Source of the DNA: Lobosporangium transversale
Lineage: Eukaryota; Mortierellomycota; Mortierellomycetes; Mortierellales; Mortierellaceae
DNA: 64,000 nt
Direction of reading: 5' to 3'
Assembly: GCF_002105155.1 (NCBI RefSeq)
Contig: NW_019029021.1
Location: forward strand, 62,001 to 126,000
Part shown: positions 25,565 to 38,369 of the stretch, in pieces
How the letters are laid out: each line of letters starts with the position of its first letter
Numbering within the stretch: the stretch's first letter is position 1
Translations under genes and position numbers: made by a program
Notes under the pieces: generated by a model
The model's database searches: none
Told to the model about the DNA's origin: nothing
What the model saw: the letters and a program-made list of their open reading frames with translations, nothing else

Positions 25565-27984
25565 AACCATTATGTCTGATGTAAGCTGTACGGAAATATT
25601 GATAAGAGGCACGCAAGTAGAGACCAAATAACAGAATAATAACAACTAGCGAAAAAAAAAAAAAAAAGACACCGAATCCAGGGAACCAATACGACATAAG
25701 CGCACTGTGCAATGAGACCGCATGAGTACCATGGTACTAAAATCTGGGAGCTTGCCAAGAGTTTAATTAAGCCTTGAATGCATTGTTGTGATACTATCCC
25801 TTAAACCGTCAACCTGGCAAATTTGCCATTATAAATGGACTTAAAATCCAGCAATTCATGGGCATTGCCTTGAAATTTTATTTCGATGTCGAAATAAATG
25901 ACCGAAAACTAAACTGTCATGGAGCTATCCTGGCTTCTTTATCTGTGCCAATAAAAAACTCCTGAAGGCTTTCGCATGACACTAGCATCCTCTTGGGGGC
26001 CCATTGTGTTGTTTATTTATTGACTGGTGTAATAGCAGTGATAATATTCGCCATAGTATCGACTTGAAAGGAGGGCAATCTGAGTTGATTCATTCTACCG
26101 CACCTTAGAGCTTGCTCGGCAAGACTTGATTTGTCACATCATTTGCTTCCTCGTCTTCTTGATATATCTGGGTTGGTAAACACTGCTAATAGAGTTTGTT
26201 AGGCCTGTTGAAACCAGAGGGAACCACAGCAACATATCATACCCAAGATGATACAAATATCTCTGTTGGAGTGAGTGGTGAACTGTGTGTGGTTCAGATG
26301 TAGTGGACATAAACGGCGAAAGAATGCATCGAAAAGATGTGAGCGATTATGAGAGCAAGGAAGAAGGGGTTGGTATGCCTGTTCAAGTCCTTGGCAAGAG
26401 AGCATGAGTAGCAGTTGTGATCAAAAGTTGATTTCGGTGAGTCCGCATAACAATGGTATAGTTTCTAGACTCTATCTTCCACGTACAGCATTGCACTATT
26501 GGTGTTTTCAGACCTGGCACCAATCATGCGAGCGAGGTATTTCTTTTCCTGAGGATTCCTTGTGTTAAACGGCCAGACAGAAAGCTTAGAAGAGTTACAG
26601 ACACAACGGTGAAAAAAATATATGTGAGCAAACAGTTGCTGTGTTTATTTGTTGTCTGCACATGCCTTCTTTCATCGCGGGCTTTTTTTTTTTTTAATTG
26701 TTTCGCAAATCTTGTTTCCTTTTTTGTTCGTCAATCACTGTGTGCACGAATAAGCAGCTGAAGCATCTCTTTGGTTTCTGTACATGTGTAGACACATTTT
26801 ACATCGCGGCGTCTTATTTATTTTCTGCACCAAAACACAAAACACAAGCGTTTTCCATTGGTGCCTCCAGAAGAAATAAACAAACTTTATTTTGGCGGCC
26901 ACTCCACAATCATGCCATGGTTATAACAATCCCTAGGAAAGGATGAAACGCGTCGGTATTAATCTCGCTTCTGTAATTCTAAATGCATATATTTTGGTGA
27001 TTGGTATCAACTATCAAGTTCGCACATACACACACCAAACGACCGCCAAAAACCACCACTCTCGCTTCTGCTCTCCCTCCATCCACAAGGCGCTGCGTAA
27101 TATCACCATTAACAAGGCACCGTCCAGTAAGAAAGGGTGCTTAGCTAGCTTTTACTCCAAGCAATAAGCACATCACCTATCTCCGCCATTGATGCCGGAA
27201 CCTGAGAGCCAACGAATATCTCTGCTTTAACGCAATAGTATTGGGGCTGTTGGAGCAAAGAACGACATCTGAACCCATTCTCTGATAAAAAAGACTTTTT
27301 TTTTCTTTAGTTGTTACCTTTGAAAGGATATAATCACCAAGTCATATCTGTTAATGCATTTATTACCCCTGTTCAAAATTATAAATCTTCTTTTATTCAT
27401 TAAATTCCTCACAAAGCACAAAACGAGAGCCAGTGCAAACAAAAGAAACTGAAAAAAAAAAAAAAAAAAATTGTGTAAAAAGGATCGACATCGACACTGT
27501 ATGCTGTATATGGAGATGATTTTTTCGAATGCTCACTTTGGTATCTCAATGTTATTATTTCCAATCTGCCGTTCATGCGAGAGCTTGTATTTATTTGTCA
27601 ATCTCTGCTATTGACTGGGACAAAACCCCAATCCAAACAAAGGAACTGAATAAAGATTGATGTGGCCTGTGAAGCAAAGGATCGATATCAAAACTATATG
27701 AGACAATGATAAAACTCATCATCAATCCAGGATATAAAAAGGGATCATTGTCTTCCTCCTTCAAAGTCCCATCCCTTTTACCACTGCCACTTGTTCCTGT
27801 ATCTTTCCCTCAATATTCTTTATCTATTCGCTTTGAATCTTTACACCATAAAAAAGCTCATCCTTTTATACCTTTGTCGCTCTTTTTTTTTTTTTTTTTT
27901 TTTTTTCTTTTTCATTTCTTTTTCATTTCTTTTCATCACCACCATTTTTCCTTTTTTCTTTCTCTTTTCGCTTAGATATTGACC
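25565..27984. other. 2.4-kb intergenic region upstream of the Fanzor-like gene
   Basis: No supported gene. It contains an A/T-rich tail of the BRCT gene, a diverged tandem duplication (27416-27710) and a T/C-rich stretch (27880-27970) ending just before the Fanzor-like start codon. A 74-codon frame at 26943-27167 shows no recognisable features. Confidence 0.45.
27416..27710 (+). repeat. Diverged tandem duplication upstream of Fanzor-like gene
   Basis: Segment 27416-27520 resembles 27618-27710. Both run ACAAAACx...CCAxxxCAAACAAAxGAACTGAA, then an A-rich or variable part, then AAGGATCGAYATC and a terminal CAATGAT/AGATGAT. Identity is moderate with small gaps. The copies begin about 200 nt apart and lie 275-570 nt upstream of the start codon. 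Confidence 0.5.
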
Positions 27985-30900
27985 ATGGGGCTGAAGTCCT
28001 TCTTCAAACTGGTTGCGGATCGCGGGGTTTTACCTTCGGAAACTGACGTGGGCACTTTCTTGGCGGCAAATCCTGACCATTCTGTTCATTTAGATCTCCT
28101 CGGTACGTTCTATTACGACATCCTCCGCAGAGTCGTCCATGCAAAGATGAAAAACGAAACCATCATTGATGTAGGAAGGTCCCTGGCACTCGAGATAAAG
28201 GATCTTTTCACAACGGACAACCTGACTATACATATTGATGGGGAACCTTGTACTGAGAAAGAAAAAGCAAGGACAGAACGGCAAGCCATAAGACAAAAAA
28301 ATATGGACGCTTTGGAGAACAATATGAGCACCTTCGAGAGAAATTCTCGGAGTGGGGTATGGACTCGTCCTCAAGTCATGAGGCGCATCCAGAAGGGTCT
28401 TCGAGAAGTCCACACCCTGAGCGTCCAGGACAAGGATCAGCTGGCAACAGGCCTTAGTTCTGTCTTCGATGTCTGTCTGTGTGCATATGAAGCGGACCCA
28501 TGCATAGGGTGCCATGATGAGGAGAATGATAGGATCGTGATATCCCAAGACTCTAATTTTTTTGCGTACGAACGAGTCTGCTTCCTAGTGCGACCCCTTC
28601 CGCACCGTAGACGGAAGTTTGGGGTTTACGACGTAGACAACGTTATCCAAGCACTAAGACTGCCAACACACGCGCATCTGGTGTTATTCTGTGCCATCGC
28701 AGGCAATGACTACTCAAGGAACCTCGAGACGTTAGGCCCGGTTAATAATCTTCGATTAGTTCGAAAGATTGCGTGGAACAAGAACTACAATAAAATGCCT
28801 CAAGATTACCTCGGGGAAGCTAATAAGGTGTTGGGAAGGAACGTAGCTTCTGAGGAAGGCCGTTTCAGTGTAGCTCTCCGCATTTTTACTTCCGGCCATC
28901 AAACGTCGGCCCAAGCGTTACCATCGAACAATGAGTTCGATAACTTCAAGCAGCGTCTACTCAATGAAAAGGATCTTCGCCATAGAATGGCTCAGCAAAG
29001 GCGAGCGCAGCGCCGCAGAACGTAAGAAAGCTCAAGCTATAGTTTTTGGCCTTGAAACCAGACGTCCCCAATACTAATCGTTAGTCCCTTTCTTGAATAA
29101 TGTAGAGGCGTACCATCATTCTATATAGCGGAAGGGTCACATAGAAACCAGTTCCGGCCCATCTTTTCTGACAAGCCGAGCATATTGAATGGGCGCACAG
29201 TTGATATCAGTAACTGTCGTCAGCACGATAGGCCGGGCCTTAAGCATCCACCACGTCGGAAAAAGGCAAAAAAGAAGCAACAGAAAAAACAAAAGCGGAA
29301 GCACAAAGGCAAGAAGCCCCACAGGGCTAAAAAAGAAGGTGCACCAATTAGGAACTTGAAGGATGCTACGAAGGTTGATCACAGCTACAGCAGTAAGCAC
29401 CCTATCAAGGCCTTAACAATTGGGTCCCTTAAGGCCTCCATGGCAAGGAAAGGCGGACTGGACGCAGATGAAAGGGATAGTATTGCAAGCCAGATCCGAG
29501 GGGCAGTTGTTGTCCTCAACCGACTACGCCGCTATGCATACTGGGCGATTGCCTTGGACATTGAGAGGATCATGCGGTTACCAGGGGCAGCAAAGTCGAG
29601 GAAAAAGGCACTGGACGAGGTCTTGGATAGCAATGATTATTCCTTCCGTCTCGCCACCCTTCTTTTGAGTGGTCAAGGTGGCCCCAATTCAGCTTACGCG
29701 AGGGCAAAAAAACAAGGAAAGGCGGTAGAAACGCCCCATTATCTCCTCGCTTATGAACATTTCAAGGCCACCACTGAACTTTCCCCAATAAAGGAAATAG
29801 ACATCACATTGGGGGACGTCCAAGGCTTTGATCCCAAAAAGATCACATTTCCAAGAGCGTCAGACTTACTAATGGGCCAAGTACAGACATCATTAAGGCA
29901 GCACTACAGGAACGCAATGGTATAGCTTGTGTAGGGGTATTTTCATGCATATTCTGCAATCGAATGCTCTTTATTCAGACTCTTTTTTTATTTTTTTTCT
30001 AGTTTGATGTCGAGAAAACAAACGAAGATATGAGCGACATTGAGTTTTTTTTGCGGGAGAACAAAAAAGTGAAAAAATACTCAGACTTTCCTACGTCTCC
30101 CTGGCCACCCGGGTATGTGTATCTGTCTGAACACGCCTTAGTTGACATCCTCTGGGCGAACGAAGATACCAAGCAGCTGCTGGAGCATATTCTGCCTCTC
30201 AATAATCCTTCCAAGACTGCAATGTATGAGTGTGTACAGGGAACAAAAGGGGTTTTGATACAGGCTCTCTTTTGTGACATTGGAGGTGATCGCATGGTTC
30301 GTGGATATCAAGACAAAGTATCCCTGCAGTCACAGGACAAAGATCTAACTCGGTTCAAACTCAAAGGAACGATTTCTACCAACGGTCTAGTTCTGAATCT
30401 ACTTGCCTATGACACAACCCAGACGAAGAGACAGCAGCAGTCTGACGTAGATGAAGAAGACCCCAGCCAAGGACTGGAGCTTTCTCAGGGATTTCTCAAC
30501 ACGACGTGTTCAAAGGCGGCCGGTGAAGACCTAACAGATGAAGACTATGCAAACATAAACTGGAAGAGGAGCTCCAAGCTGCTTGAAAACGTTGAGCTCA
30601 CATTCAACAAACCAGGGCGATGCCCATCCGCAAACACCACAACTATCGTCGGATGTGATCCTGGTATTGTTAACGCCCTTACGTTTTCCTCGCTGGACCC
30701 TCACAACCCTAACTTGCGGCAAACGGTAAAGGTGAGAAGCAGGTTCTTGTACCTCCCTGTCCTCCGCTTCAATCACCTGTTGAACAAAAGGAAGCGTGAA
30801 AAAGGAATGATTGAGGTTGAGAGCGCCATCCCTGTGTTTGGAAGGGATACGTATAATGAGTACTTTCAATGGATGAACGAGGAGTCTCAGACACAGACAG

Positions 30901-31479
30901 GATCAACGAATTTGGATGTGCTTCAAGAGTTCTACGAGTCCAGATGGCACCTGAAAAAAAAATGGGACCTACGAAAGGCTCAACGAGCTACGTTCGACTA
31001 CGCGGTACAGCGAGTGTTGAAGATGCTTGGGGATAAAGGAGTACTTGTCGTCGGCCTAGGGTCCTTTGAAAGTAGTAAAGGAGTTCCCAGCAAGCCACTG
31101 CTATAACGAGACATCTTGTCACACAGGTATGGCTGTTTTTAAAAAATTAAGCAAAGCTGGAAAGCCATAAAACCCTTGCTAATAAACGACTGCCATTTGA
31201 AACGCTTAGGTCAAAGCACGCGGACACTTCGCTGTAGGAGCGCACGAATTTTACACCAGCGCCCGCTGTCCCCGACCCCTCTGCGATAGCTTTTTAGAGA
31301 CGGTGTACCCTCGCTCTAAATATTGCCGGACATGTAAGGTATTCTTCGACTGTGACGCAGTAGGGGCGGAAAACATCGCAAGAATCGGTCTTGCTCAAAT
31401 TGAGAGGCAAGAGAGGCCTGCAAAGTACAAGCCCACGGAAGAGTCGCCTGCTCCGGCTGCAAAGCGCGCACGACGCTAG
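27985..31479 (+). pseudogene. FEN1/XPG-like nuclease fused to Fanzor (TnpB-like) nuclease
   Basis: Exons 27985..29021, 29106..29919, 30003..31126 and 31210..31479; introns 83-84 nt, GT-AG, the first and third with CTAAT branch sites. If one missing base near 31096 is allowed, the product is 1081 residues. Residues 1-270 are an XPG/FEN1 PIN nuclease: MGLKSFFKL start, D37, D85 (HIDGEPCTEK), E169 and D171 (YEADP), D189 (SQDSNFF), D242 (GNDY), spaced almost as in FEN1. The second SQDSN ligand is Asn191. Residues about 389-420 are a Lys/Arg-rich linker. Residues 450-1081 are TnpB/Fanzor: D836 in VGCDPGI (RuvC-I), GLGSF at 968-972, E1005 in HEFYTS, Cys 1012, 1017, 1031 and 1034 (zinc finger), and D1041 in CDAVGAENI (RuvC-III). 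The tail ends KRARR, a likely nuclear signal. Fanzors are eukaryotic RNA-guided DNA nucleases of transposon origin; the flap-nuclease fusion is unusual. Two abutting genes are possible but unlikely. Confidence 0.82.
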
Positions 31480-32451
31480 ACACAAGTATTTGGGTGCCGG
31501 CACACCCACAAAAAATTTGTAAGTTCTGTTTATTTTCGTCTCCTGTATCCATCCTCTCTAATCTTTTGCCCCTGAATTTCTGGACTAACTTTAAAAACCG
31601 TACAGATCAACAGATAAGGTAATTTGGCCTTTTACCATTCTAGGGTCCTTAAGTATCTTCTAAAACCAGCTGGACCCTCTTGTTTGCTTTCAAGAAGATC
31701 TGTCGCAACCTGCTTGCCTGAACTCCTGCCAGAGCAATTATACCTCAAATTACTACGTATTTCCTGTCCCAAATAAGCAAACTTTATTACCGCCTTTAAA
31801 AAAACATTGATTGAATTGATGATTTGTTACGACACAAAATGGTGACCAACTTCTCCTCGGGCCTATCTGATCCGCTTCAAATGGATCTCGTAGCTTTCAA
31901 GAGAGCTGGGACAAAATGAATTCGCTTTCAAGCTTAAGGGGACATTTCGAGAGTCAAACAAAGCTGTCGCTGCTCTCTCTATAGTTAATATATTGCCTTT
32001 GAAAAAACAAGATAAAGAACAGGTAGCCTCAACTTTAGCACAGCCTGGTCTACTTAAAGCCAATTAAATTGCCTAAGGTTAGGCTTGAATGGCGGCCGAT
32101 GTGCTCATGACAGGCAGAGGCCCTTTTTTTAATTGTTTTGTATTGGTTATTTGGTGGTGATGGAATGATGCTTGTTTATAAAAAAAAATTGAAAATACGT
32201 TACCATTATATCATAAGCAGAAACAAAAACGGTGGTCATGGATACATACAACTGATTCTCTGAAACGCCATGAGGATGCTCTTTTTTCTCTTCGTCTCTT
32301 TAATTGTGTTGCCCTCCGTCTTTTGAATATCCAACCAAAGCGCATAACTGTTTGTTTACAATGCAATCACATCCAATGGCAGTCACCTTATTTCAAATAT
32401 AATGCTAGACTTGTTAGATAAATACAAAACCGGCCATTGTCTATTAGTTAT
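31480..32451. other. 3' flank of the Fanzor-like gene
   Basis: No coding sequence recognised. TnpB and Fanzor guide RNAs commonly derive from the 3' end of the gene and its flank, so this region is the place to look for one. It contains a GC-rich palindrome at 31491-31508 in otherwise A/T-rich DNA. No terminal inverted repeats were evident by eye. Confidence 0.4.
31491..31508. repeat. GC-rich palindrome after Fanzor-like stop codon
   Basis: TGGGTGCCGGCACACCCA has 6-nt perfect arms (TGGGTG/CACCCA) and contains the perfect palindrome GTGCCGGCAC. It starts 12 nt after the stop codon. It could be a structured part of a guide RNA, a 3'-end element, or chance. Confidence 0.5.
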
Positions 32452-34340
32452 TTATGATCTAAAAGTTGTCTTATTAAAACATCTATACTTGCACTCGAGC
32501 TTTTTGACCCTTGTTCTGGCTCTGTTCGGTCCAACTGATGTATCAATGCGTTCACCTCCGAAGCGCTACTCATGTATAGCTTTTCGCTCTGCTTCATCAT
32601 TGGACTATCCTTCTGACTCTCTTCCTCTATAGCCTCTTTTTGCTTCTCCTGCTCTTCTTTTCCCTGGCTCGTTCATCTGCTTCCTGCTTCTCCTGGGCAA
32701 GCGTCTCATCCATGCCTGAAGATATCACCTTCAAAAACATCATCATTGTAGCCTTGGTCTGGACGCTCAATTGGTTGACACTCCAGAATGGGTTGGGACT
32801 GTGGTAGTACTAGTGGTAGTGAAGATGCTGGTATGAAGTCTGATGCTGATGTGGATCTGACACCTTGCGATGGTATAACCTCCGCTGTTGATGTAGTCAG
32901 TGACAAAAGATGTGAAGGGTCTGAGATATCGGGTGAATTGACGAAACCCTTACATCAAACATAAAGCCGCAGTTTTGAGTGATCCTCTTCTTTCACCATA
33001 TCCTGATTATGCTTTGTTTCTGCGGCTGTGGATCAGTAGTGGTAATAGCTGAGGTCTTGAAAGCTCCTCTATCCGCTCATTTTGAGGGACTCGCAGCCGT
33101 TGTCGACACTTGCGCTGATTGGAGATAACCGGAATGGATTGGTTGTTGCGGTGGAGTATGGTACTGAAGAGGGTTGTAATATATGGCTCCATATTCCGGG
33201 GAATCTGTTTCAGCTCCGGAAGGCCATAATGCTGCTCCTTTATGAAATGATGAACCTACTCTGGTCTGGAGTGGAGTACTGCTTTATGGAGTTGTAAGTT
33301 GTAGGCGCAATCGACTCATCCCAGACTTGATCCCATGCTACTGCTTCTTCCTGCTATCTTTATGAAGAAAAGCACCATATCAAGATCTATCATGACTTGT
33401 TCCTGCTGTGATGATGCCCTCTTCATCTCAACCCATGATCCTGAATGTTGCTATTCGCTTGCGATTGCCATTGCGATTGCGATGTAATAATTGAAAAGCT
33501 CTCGTGCCCGTGTCCCTGCTTCTGCAGATGACTGTGAGGTCTGTTTGTGATATAACAAAGTAGTAGCTACGATTGTGATGCCTCTGTTCTAAATGATCTT
33601 CCAATCGACTTTATTCAGATCACCACGATCTGTGTTCAATTGGAATGACTCTGAGAAATCCCGATGGGTCTAGTCCATCATGTCTATCTTGATTCGAACG
33701 AGGCCTCGCGAGCGTAATATTCTTGACGCTGCATCAAGTATTCGGAAATATCAACTCCATGGGTACCAGAATAGGAGTAGAGAAGGATGTTGTGTTGAGC
33801 GTGCCACTGTTAAAGATCGTGAACTCATCTTGGGCTTGAGAGATAGAAGGGATACTGTTACCCTTGAGGCAAAATGACTACTGTTTTTGGCAAGCGAAGA
33901 AGAAGAAGATGATGATGATGATGATGATGATGGGAAAAGATGACTATTATAGTTCCCGAGAGGTTGATTGGCAAAAGAAGGATGGTATTTTCTGATGGTA
34001 TTGTGTCTGATACTGAGGCTGTTGAGTTGTGCGTCTATTTGCTGCCCCATAAACTCTTGTTCGTAAAGTGGTCAATGCCTGGAAAGGATTTGGCAGAAGA
34101 GACGAGAAGAGGAAGAGCCACTGGACCTTACCACTTGATTCGAAGAGTAGGCTTGTCATTTCGGAGAAAAAAAAAGAAGTTTGTGTAATGGTAATGCTGC
34201 AGAAGGAAGGCAACAAGAAGTCTAAAAGACCGACGGAATGACGGAGGGGGAACTTGTTATAAAAGAAAGAAAAGGAAAAAGGGAAAAAGGGAGTGATGAG
34301 TAGAGAAAGGAGGAAAAAGAGATGAAAAGACATTTGCATG
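32452..34340 (-). pseudogene. Decayed low-complexity gene, unidentified
   Basis: Across almost 1.9 kb, minus-strand frames show coding-like segments interrupted by frameshifts and stops. They are a Gln/Asn-rich and poly-Ser part (about 33700-34050), a Ser/Thr/Pro part (TTSTAEVIPSQGVRSTS, 32706-32906), and a charged C-terminal part (EEESQKDSPMMKQSEKLY, to about 32452). This composition resembles a fungal regulatory or scaffold protein, but no domain is recognisable. At least four frame changes are needed to connect the pieces. Introns could explain some of these, not all, so I call it a probable pseudogene. Confidence 0.4.
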
Positions 34341-34630
34341 AGAACCAGTGTTGAATTGTGGGGTGTGTGTTTTTGTGGATGAGTAATTCGATTCAGGTCG
34401 GACTCACACCCGTTGAGGTAGGGTGTCTATTTGTCAAATTTTAATTTCAGTTACCGGAGCACGGCGAAGTGAATTCCGATCAAATCCACACATGTGAGAA
34501 CAATTTTTGTTCTTTATTTTATTAATTTTATTAGAGTCTGAATGAAAGGGATAAGGGTCTATGCTGAAAAAAAAAAAAAAAAAAAAAATTGATTAAAATG
34601 TTTATGTTTATTAACTATTAATACATTTAT

Positions 34631-35455
34631 TTACTTGGAAACAATCTTGTGGATGCAAGCATTCTTGCCCTTGAAGACGCCATCCTCTGCATGGATATCA
34701 CGGTGTCTGTAACCTAGGGTGATTGTGGGGCTTGAAATTCTCAGGGTCAAACAGAGCGGGGTTTCCTCCTTTCTTCACATACAGCTTGAAACATCCTCAC
34801 GGAAACGGGTCAAGTCACGGTAGTTCTTGAGAATGATCTGGAGAGACTGTTGGAAGACACCATCCGCCTTCGTCACCATCTGGACACGACCCAAGCACTC
34901 GGTTCGAACCTGGAGCGCTGAAGACGGTTCTTGTGTGAGGCAAGGGCGTTGATCTCTTCAATGGTCACACCAGCAGGGTGAAGGATCTGATCATACTCCG
35001 TGGGCAAGATTACAGTGATATGTGACTCTCCACGGGAGATCAAGGTTCCGTTACCAAAGTCCTTAGTAGTGTTGACAAGATCAAAGACAGGTTTGACATA
35101 CTTGAAATCTACATTCAATCCAACCCAATTGGCGAACAAGCCAGTGCCCTGTTGAAACCATATTCAAATTGAAAGTTGTGCATTGAAGAAAGCAGTATAT
35201 CAAGTGATGGTGTTAGTGTTGAGTAGAGTGAAACACCGTTATGTATTTTTATTTTCTCCTCCGAGCATTCAAGGCCTCCAGTATTGAACGTACACTATGA
35301 GGGATGAAAGGGACCTTCGAGGTTTGGAAGACTTTCTTGTTGATGACAATGGGCTTGCTGTGGTACTTCTTATTGCCATCAACAGTCTTGGGACCTGCCA
35401 TGACAGTCGAGGCAACTAGAGCCAAAGTGGCGAACAAAAAAGTGGCAACACGCAT
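34631..35455 (-). pseudogene. Secreted 2H-phosphoesterase-like protein, frameshifted
   Basis: Exon 1, 35455-35294, encodes a clear signal peptide (MRVATFLFATLALVASTVMA) and about 34 more residues. A GTACGT donor and CAG acceptor lead to exon 2 from 35148 (GTGLFANWVGLNVDFKYV). SHITVI and, later, PHITLGY are two HxT-type motifs like those of the 2H phosphoesterase fold. Three single-base frame changes interrupt exon 2: near 34910 (after FEP), near 34800 (after REDV), and near 34722 (within the second HIT motif). The conserved protein continues in other frames to the stop at 34631. An intact copy would probably be a secreted RNA- or nucleotide-processing phosphoesterase. Family assignment rests only on these motifs. 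Confidence 0.6.
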
Positions 35456-38369
35456 TGGTTATGAAAAAATGAGGAGAGGATATGTGTCTGTTGGATGGAA
35501 AAAAGGTGAAGGAAGTGAGGTAGATGGATAATCGAGGAAACAGAATCCACTTTTTGGGCGCGGGAGAATTCCTTTTAAATGTTTTCCTTCGATCGAAAGA
35601 GTATTTTTTTTGCTTCTAAAATAAAATGTGCTTTCCTTTCCAGTAAGCACAGAGGACAGATTGCCAAAGGGACAAGAGCAACAATCCATTGGCCATTGAG
35701 AGCATCAATAGTCTGTGTTGTAGTAGGTTTCTGGGAACGTGGACTATGGATTGGATGGACAGGGGCCCAAGAGATAATAAATGAAGGGAACACAAACAGC
35801 AACAGAGCCAATAAAATTTAATACACTGGTTAGATGTCATAAACGTCATTTATGGTTCGCTCAACGATAAAAAACTGAAGAACTATCAAAAATCTGGATT
35901 GAATATGTAATTAATGCTCTATCACAGCGCTTTACAGTCGCCCAGTAGTCAACCCATATTCTCCCTCAAGCGCCACACGATTAGTGCTATAACTCATTAT
36001 TGTGTCTCATGTTGAAGGCACATTGTTACAGGAAAGGAATTGCTCATACCCTCCTTCCATAACTGTCAACCGCTCTGTCCGCGGTGAGTGGGACAAACAA
36101 AGGTCTGTAACCAGCGCGCGCTGTACAAGATAAAGGATTCCATTCGTTGACCAGACTAATGGTGTTATGCCTCGGTAGTGATCATTGAAGTTCTATATCA
36201 GATCAAGAGTATGATTGAGCTTGCCTGCGTACAAAATAGCATATGCGCCGCTAATGGTTAAGAGTCCTTGAAAACACATGTCTCGATCCAAGTGGATCCA
36301 TGTCATATGCACTTCTTTCTGGTCTTTGCTGTGTTCCCAGCAACGGTTATCTAGCATTTATAACATTGAGCATTGGTGGCGTCATCTCTCTGTAGCGCTC
36401 CTTGAGAACTGCAGAAAGAACGCACACCTTCTCTCTGGCAACCAACCACATTTAAAGCTTCCATCCATGACCCTGTAAAAAAAGCGTTATGAGCATTCGG
36501 ATTCATCACTCCATATACGAATGAATACTAGTGGCGTTGGATTATGGCTATGGTGGACTTTCGAATCCAAGCAGTGATACAAACCCCAATAAATCGAGTA
36601 GCGCCGGTTAACCGAGCAGTATCCGAGGATTTTCGAGCAGCAACGAGAATAGTCCATTAGGAGTATGAGGTGATCTGTTGGACCATCTGAATCTCAATCC
36701 GTAAATACACTATATATTAATACGAAGCTAAACTTTATGTCCAATACTGCTGCGGCTGGTCAACTCACGATGCAGATAAATAGCCACATCTCACATCTTT
36801 CGGTCAGAATGCCGTGAATTTGACACAAACGCTACAGATCTATCAAAGCACGCTGCTCTGCCCATGTCAAGCCAGCATCACATTCACCTTTGCCAGACCA
36901 TTTCTTTTTAAAAAGTGGATTAACTTCTGAAGAGATTTGTTTGGCCGATTGAATTGACCTAAGGCTCGGAAGTCCACCTAGGGGTGTATAGTCTTTTTGA
37001 ATTAAAACAATCAAAATATGCGTTTTGAGTTCCAATGGTATTCAATAGTACGAGTTTGTTTAAAGTTTCTGGGCGACTCCCATGTAGCCTCGCGTTTATT
37101 AAAGCCCCCCCATTGCACATGATATTCTATTTCATTCTTCCCCTGGTGTTATCCCAAACAAGCTTCTTTAAAGTTCTGGCCCCGCAACTCCAAAAAGTTA
37201 TGTTTCCATATGTTGGAATTTCTACACGCGCATGGAGATATGGCTTTAAAAAGTGCTTCTAGCTGATATCCATGTTCCTTCCAGGCCATATCCTTTTGTT
37301 ATGTCCCAGGGTTTGGAGGTTCCTCAAAAGAAACTTTCATTTTAATCCGTAATATCAGATTAATTAGTGACGGCTATGGCAGGGCCTAATAAAAGGTTCC
37401 ACATAGCAACCATAATAAACAACTCTCGATCTCCTTGGCATACCAGCCTTCAGAAAATATCCCAGCTTGTGGTCGTATCCTCGGTGTTACTATCAACGGC
37501 TATATATATATATGTTTCTTTTTTTTTTTGTTCTGAGGATATGGCGAAGATGAAATAGCACATGATATCTTTTCAGCCCCATCCGAACGAGTCGATACAA
37601 AGGAATGAAGGGATGAGACGGAGGTGTATTTCCATAGAAGAATAACACTTGCTGTCCTTGGTGGTTATTTTGCGCTATTCTGTAAATTTAGCCTGAATAC
37701 AGCATCTGACACGCCGGCATACAAAAAATGTCTGGGTCAAAAAATTCGGGTGTTTTTTCAGCACACAAAAGTTCCCTCCGTTCCGCACAGCAGTATAATA
37801 GGTAAAATAGTGAGATCTGCTCTGGCTGGGCACGTATGGGGCCAGCATTGCGTTATGACTTCAAACCTGTCCTGGGCCCTCTCTACTAGATACATGTGCT
37901 TGCAAGGTATTCTATGCTTGTCGTGATCGGGACTCTACCAACAGCGATCTCCCTACCTTCAGTCGATAGACAAGGCTAGAGGGCATTCTTGGACGAAAGG
38001 CAACCACAATTCAGGCGCATCTTATATATTATTATCGGCCTTTTATTTTTTTTTTTTTTTTTTTTGAGGATTTGGCCAGAATGGAATAGTCTTGTAGATG
38101 TTTCCTTTTCAGCCAATGAAGAACTGGCTCAGATAAGGAGCATGTTCTACCAGTCGAACAAAAGACAGCAAGCTTTCGGTTGGCCCCCGAGAAGACACCA
38201 CTAATAAAACAATAGAGATATATCTATTTCTGCACATGCTGTCTTGCAGTTCTGGTATCGCGGTCTCTTTGGTTTTTTTCCGGACACCAATAAAGTAACT
38301 GTGTTCTGGTAGAGCGCCATGCCTGAAACAATGGCCACATGCCATGCATAAAAGATAAAGCCCTTAAAT
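35456..38369. other. Intergenic, no supported gene
   Basis: About 2.9 kb without a convincing gene. Short frames at 35575-35849, 36832-37035 and 37624-37926 lack recognisable features. A diverged 45-nt repeat occurs at 37535-37578 and 38066-38114. Confidence 0.4.
37535..38114 (+). repeat. Diverged direct repeat, two copies about 530 nt apart
   Basis: GAGGATATGGCGAAGATGAA ... TTTTCAGCC (37535-37578) resembles GAGGATTTGGCCAGAATGGA ... TTTTCAGCC (38066-38114). Both are preceded by TATATAT and a long T tract. They may be two copies of an ancestral upstream region. Confidence 0.45.

Follow-up and report, generated by a model that had tools for sequence, protein, structure and literature searches.

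A gene with four coding blocks and three GT-AG introns lies on the plus strand at 27985-31479 of the 64-kb stretch of the Lobosporangium transversale genome analyzed here (the window). Judged by sequence, exon 1 encodes an XPG/FEN1/EXO1-type nuclease domain, and exons 2 to 4 encode a Fanzor. The XPG-Fanzor fusion is a real, mobile gene family: the window copy sits in a transposon (family 1), and a second family in the same genome (family 2) has the same domain order at 31% identity to family 1 in exon 1. A preliminary description of the locus had noticed the two-domain protein, and the motifs it quoted, the four exons and the three introns were all found where it placed them; the TA-type transposon around the gene, present in about 40 copies, had escaped it. 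It had also joined the exons into one frame, which did not hold for this copy. Exon 3 breaks frame near 31.1 kb, where a TAA (31104-31106) ends it ahead of intron 3; exon 4 reads on in a different frame. Rescue of the reading frame by intron 3 was ruled out. Feature coordinates are collected in Table 1.

The fusion gene and its two nuclease halves

The two-domain reading holds for the family. P0008, an annotated Mortierella protein of 998 amino acids, could be aligned with 99% of exons 1-3, and the FEN1/EXO1 and Fanzor matches of its predicted structure fall on opposite halves of this single chain. The annotated proteins P0001, P0002 and P0003 cross the junction of exons 1 and 2, with the intron 1 junction at the same place as in the window copy, and the intron phases of family 2 (2, 0 and 0) are those of family 1. 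Exon 1 was matched 121 times across the genome (42.7 Mb in 127 contigs) and exon 3 was matched 143 times, counting both families and fragments, which is far beyond chance. An XPG match lay upstream on the same strand for 51 of the 65 Fanzor exon-3 clusters, and 26 of the 77 XPG clusters had no downstream Fanzor match. This count took in 69 of the 143 exon-3 matches and 103 of the 121 exon-1 matches, omitting about 25 antisense fragments inside family 2 and small fragments mostly at loci already represented; the misses include family-2 relatives whose exon 3 gave no score (for example C72:57375, in a stretch 79% identical to family 2). Chance adjacency of two genes was ruled out by the same order in the two families, in P0008 and in the 51 clusters.

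Table 1. Coordinates of the fusion gene, its carrier element and the flanking bases in the window
Feature	Position	Strand	Remarks
Exon 1: XPG/FEN1/EXO1-type nuclease domain, ~346 amino acids	27985..29021	+	Rad2 match and FEN-1 profile match; conserved active-site acids
Intron 1: 84 nt, phase 2	29022..29105	+	GT-AG in the window copy and 6 other copies checked; phase the same in family 2
Exon 2: FYxAxGSxxNQFRPxF segment, lysine-rich linker, helical N-terminal part of the Fanzor	29106..29919	+	
Intron 2: 83 nt, phase 0	29920..30002	+	Phase matched in family 2
Exon 3: middle part of the Fanzor with RuvC-I (GCDPGI)	30003..31126	+	D of GCDPGI at 30657-30659
Intron 3: 83 nt, phase 0 in unbroken copies	31127..31209	+	Phase matched in family 2
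Exon 4: HEFYTS (alternative glutamate), four-Cys zinc ribbon, FDCDAVGAENI (RuvC-III), stop TAG	31210..31479	+	
Family-1 transposon copy, ~5.8 kb, ends TATCCC... / ...CAACAGATA, including the flanking TA on each side	25795..31616	+	Similarity between genomic copies stops here
5' non-coding part with 12-bp palindrome GGCAAATTTGCC near the left tip	25795..27984	+	0.87-0.94 identity between copies over the part compared (fetched copies extend only ~1.5 kb upstream of exon 1)
3' non-coding right end, candidate end of a guide-RNA scaffold	31480..31616	+	0.905-1.000 identity to five copies
Left-flank bases AC + TA, candidate target-adjacent motif	25793..25796	+	Type-A left-end bias
Right flank outside the element, would-be guide if the system is like known Fanzors	31617..31640	+	Suggested by passages of PMC10432273

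Similarity of exon 1 to known XPG families is weak at the level of sequence. Exon 1 alone matched Rad2 among PDB sequences (E = 1.5e-4), and a three-sequence profile of it matched M. jannaschii FEN-1 (E = 1.6e-5). Pfam XPG_N and XPG_I gave no match in window exon 1, and NCBIfam gave archaeal FEN-1 alone, at E = 0.003 and far below its cut-off. Family 2 reached Pfam XPG_I at E = 0.09, under the cut-off; a diverged relative in the same genome with 28% identity to exon 1 (C13:672316-672525) scored above it (25.9 vs 24.9 bits). Two-metal catalysis calls for seven acids, of which the window copy has D37, D85, E169, D171, D189 and D242. At the remaining position, 191, it carries N, where P0001 and family 2 carry D; in P0008 it is position 189 that holds N (all in window numbering). 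The window copy and P0008 thus each keep six of the seven expected acids and family 2 keeps all seven, at 30-40% overall identity. These are the positions expected to be catalytic in this enzyme group, and mutants of D86, D181 and D233 of FEN1 and of D173 and D225 of Exo1 are named in the titles of structure entries. The domain resembles FEN1, EXO1 and XPG (Rad2) in the MG start of its product, in the conserved acids and in the FEN1 and Exo1 fold matches found by structure search over residues 1-304 of the P0008 model. Unlike those enzymes, it shows only 10-15% identity in the structural matches, lies below Pfam detection in the window, is fused to a predicted RNA-guided nuclease and is borne by a transposon.

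More diverged XPG-type loci with 28-35% identity to exon 1 were also seen (C13:672226-672924, C44:263630-264397, C51:1293045-1293482 and others). They had no downstream Fanzor match in the cluster count and are possibly further families or stand-alone relatives.

The Fanzor half carries the DPG motif at RuvC-I that is a hallmark of Fanzors (PMC10711439). The DPG pattern was found in 14 of the 28 sequences searched (13 of the 27 proteins and one family-2 piece), many of the others stopping short of the site; P0015 reads RCDPG. The alternative RuvC-II glutamate lies six residues before the first zinc-ribbon cysteine in exon 4 (HEFYTSARC). EYFTSARC, EYYTSAKC and similar forms occur in P0009, P0010, P0011, P0019, P0023 and family 2, and P0015 reads RFYTSARC, so the alternative glutamate is absent there. 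The published Fanzor pattern D-X(125,275)-[TS][TS]XX-C4 ribbon-X(5,50)-RD (PMC3627910) was found in six sequences, with a spacing of 126-208; Y replaces one ribbon cysteine in P0023, and the window copy has FDCD where its relatives carry RD. Exon 4 matched Pfam Cas12f1-like_TNB with E = 4.7e-5 and 23.9 bits, below the cut-off of 26.3. By structure search, residues 466-987 of the P0008 model matched solved Fanzors, and SpuFz, GtFz and PpFz folds were matched by both models examined, which are of low to modest confidence; other RNase H-like folds scored similarly to Fanzors in one of the two structure searches. Active-site residues are largely or wholly conserved in both halves.

The nearest known systems for this half are the Fanzor1 proteins SpuFz1 of Spizellomyces punctatus, PpFz of Parasitella parasitica and GtFz of Guillardia theta. 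Common to these and to the present family are the DPG RuvC-I, the alternative glutamate, the C4 ribbon, RuvC-III and structural matches along the models, as well as multicopy carrier elements; the one-sided left-flank bias of the present family is a candidate counterpart of the Fanzor1 left-flank motif. The present family differs in its N-terminal XPG-type nuclease of ~350 residues with a lysine-rich linker, in a first ribbon half of the form CX4C, and in a guide RNA that is so far a predicted one.

Two transposon families and the decay of their copies

Pairwise similarity between family-1 copies begins near 25795 and stops at 31616, with unrelated flanks beyond. At least 40 left-end and at least 41 right-end matches were found in the genome, which puts the number of copies in L. 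transversale at about 40. The stretch from 26000 to 27984 contains only short open reading frames of at most 100 amino acids. Long terminal inverted repeats were ruled out for family 1 by direct comparison of the ends, which showed none beyond TATC/GATA; nor did any appear among 25 of the 69 inverted pairs. Family 1 was not assigned to the Tc1/mariner group. When the C14 insertion was compared with the related empty sites C82, C12 and C114, the two shared junction bases fitted a duplication of TA (or AT). The genome holds 154 DDE_3 matches, and among those listed none was tied to the element ends as an autonomous partner.

The left tip comes in two subtypes, A and B, which differ at ~25797-25830 (AAACCGTCAACCT vs CGTCCGTAACAAG ahead of the GGCAAATTTGCC palindrome) and in their left-flank bases (AC vs T). 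The window (31579-35490) and C14 (L087, G000:C14:17331-21330) have at least 3.9 kb to the right of the element in common, at 97% identity. Their left flanks, in contrast, diverge at the left edge of the element, and for C14 both flanks have counterparts among empty sites elsewhere, so that the window copy has the look of a recombinant of two elements.

The window copy is the broken relic of a once-coding gene, since exon 3 has its frame break and the other whole family-1 genes are broken too. The window's exon-3 break is absent from five other whole-gene copies, each of which has breaks elsewhere, and a sixth (C69) has a break in exon 2, so that none of the seven whole family-1 genes checked is in frame throughout. 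In family 2, the C51 copy is apparently in frame through exons 1-3: exon 1 is open, exon 2 is in the right phase and exon 3 is open, as read from these three exons, the exact exon-1 donor apart. The other six family-2 exon-2 pieces have breaks or do not read through.

Family-2 copies have inverted repeats at their ends, TAG(C/T)CCGT(T/C)CCATT, and TATA on both sides in seven of the eight copies compared, the eighth having TGTA/TACA; C79, whose left end is apparently cut, was left out of this comparison. Repeats and flanks of this kind agree with an element of the Tc1/mariner group. The right end reads GTCC inward from the tip. Sailor (DD82E) transposons of the Tc1/mariner group have been described from L. 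transversale, including an element with 1362-bp inverted repeats (PMC8533490). Family 2 is like Sailor, as far as it is described there, in its TATA flanks and its inward GTCC. It is unlike Sailor in that no transposase tied to the family-2 ends was found and in the length of the inverted repeats reported for Sailor; family 1, for its part, is without them.

Family 2 looks younger, its best copies being 96-99% identical; copies lie at L036 (G000:C13:738054-744553), C37, C73, C51, C24, C46, C84, C44, C59, C89, C61 and C58. At least three of them lack ~0.5 kb covering RuvC-II: compared with the longer C37 copy, those at C13, C73:944440 and C89 have a common internal deletion that removes this region, with exon 1 open. 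The 5' region of family 2 contains an antisense 0.55-kb fragment (L036:488-1038, minus strand) that is 85% identical to window 30195-30746 in Fanzor exon 3, and similar antisense exon-3 fragments occur at about 25 places. The fragment may derive from an old insertion or may give rise to antisense RNA.

Flank bias and candidate guide RNA

The bases flanking the elements are biased on the left side. Among type-A left ends, C stands at -1 in 11 of 13 distinct flanks and A at -2 in 12 of 13; among type-B left ends, T stands at -1 in all 11. These statistics cover 26 of 30 loci (15 of type A, 13 of them distinct, and 11 of type B), with base frequencies of 0.29/0.21 assumed and with L046 (CAC before TATTCCC), L059, L062 and L066 omitted. 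Family-2 left flanks have G at -1 in eight of eight copies and A at -2 in seven of eight, before TATA (TGTA in C13). No comparable bias was found over 20 distinct right flanks, where the lowest P was 0.013 at one of six positions. For SpuFz1, a conserved CA pair ahead of the left repeat of its element and a CATA target-adjacent motif are reported (PMC10432273). By analogy, the one-sided bias fits the pattern that a Fanzor would leave by cutting its own empty site.

If the system works as known Fanzors do, the guide would be taken from the right flank (31617..31640), where the sequence differs between copies. The last 137 nt of the right end gave no folding signal above shuffled sequences (z 0.39), and the right end (31480..31616) had no Rfam match at the gathering threshold.

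A proposed cycle and its alternatives

We propose that the element is a decayed, Fanzor-carrying DNA transposon whose single gene joined an EXO1/FEN1-type 5' nuclease, a lysine-rich linker and a Fanzor in a cycle of retention and spread, and we would give this account an even chance of being right. The sequences show the fusion and its conservation, the active-site residues of the two halves, the mobile setting and the one-sided flank bias; for the cycle we infer a transposase, a guide RNA, RNA-guided cutting and trimming. A transposase of Tc1/mariner type, acting in trans, would insert the element at TA targets. Transcription through to the right end would yield a guide RNA, the guide being right-flanking host DNA by analogy with TnpB and Fanzor. 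The Fanzor half would cut the element-free site, recognized by the left-flank target-adjacent motif and the match to the guide, on a sister, a homolog or an excision product. Resection of 5' ends by EXO1-type enzymes prepares breaks for homologous repair; the fused nuclease would trim the 5' ends or flaps of the break and favor repair from the element-bearing copy, by which the element would be kept or spread. The lysine-rich linker may aid binding of DNA or RNA. The preliminary description had likewise suggested RNA-guided cutting paired with the processing of flaps or R-loops; the domains for both are present, and the activities themselves remain predicted ones. More tentatively, the fusion could be a self-contained RNA-guided homing effector of Mortierellaceae transposons, gene-drive-like in its action, that breaks element-free alleles and trims their 5' ends, repair then copying the element in.

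Several observations can also be read in other ways. The flank bias may reflect a transposase preference or bases encoded by the element; at C14 at least, the left-flank bases are host DNA, because the same bases stand at the empty sites. The others concern the reading frame and the relatives, and are also what would be expected if the locus made two products, with intron-1 retention giving a free XPG-type nuclease of 346 amino acids in family 1 and 341 in family 2, and with the Fanzor made separately or the fusion a minor form. An uninterrupted, full-length exon 1 is kept by 10 family-1 copies (that of the window among them, at 90-100% identity) and by 14 family-2 copies, and exons 2 and 3 are often broken. 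Homologs do not all encode the halves as separate genes, P0008 spanning both, yet 19 of the 20 related proteins in one search set were predicted without XPG sequence; these are short predictions or contigs. An in-frame TAA also overlaps the intron-1 donor in both families (29022; L036:2522), but this stop is an automatic outcome of a phase-2 GTAA donor. Exon 2, moreover, opens with the conserved FYxAxGSxxNQFRPxF segment with no start codon ahead of it, and P0001-P0003 cross the junction. We consider separate products unlikely.

We are similarly doubtful that the XPG half is the element's own mobilization enzyme, or a transposase helper that processes ends or flaps when the element excises or gaps are repaired, donor-site retention being a separate task of the Fanzor. 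To our knowledge, XPG enzymes are not known as transposases. The DDE_3 matches in the genome could act in trans, and the family-2 ends are Tc1/mariner-like, although it is true that 26000-31616 contains no other long open reading frame. Accessory helicases and nucleases do occur in other transposons, among them AcademH and AcademX (PMC10045372; PMC3627910). An Academ-type origin of the XPG part drew no support from the literature search beyond one AcademX/AcademH passage (PMC10045372). That the XPG half is catalytically dead or purely structural, a chance acquisition that travels with the transposon, seems improbable: its similarity to known XPG families is weak and one catalytic position is N in the window and in P0008, but the remaining acids are kept at 30-40% identity, all seven in family 2, and the P0008 model matches the FEN1 and Exo1 folds.

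Within the open-license literature searched, no earlier description of a Fanzor element with a fused XPG-type nuclease was found: no publication came up for Fanzor with XPG or for Fanzor with Mortierella, and the available passages of four Fanzor papers mention no such fusion. A close parallel is engineered. Of five fusions of Cas9 with exonucleases made in Pichia pastoris, those with Exo1 and Mre11 achieved seamless gene deletion at the highest rates (PMC9450370). Those proteins likewise join a programmable nuclease and an exonuclease in a single polypeptide, and the proposed repair from the element-bearing copy would follow the same logic. They are man-made and based on Cas9, whereas the present family places its exonuclease-type domain at the front and has a Fanzor as the guided nuclease.

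Fanzors are known as RNA-guided cutters of transposons. A fused FEN1/EXO1-type nuclease predicts resection after cutting, a step by which a cut could be converted into gain for the element. If the proposed cycle is true, nature would have arrived, with eukaryotic parts only, at an equivalent of the Cas9-exonuclease fusions made to increase homologous repair, and the fusion would offer a lead for editing tools that bias the choice of repair.
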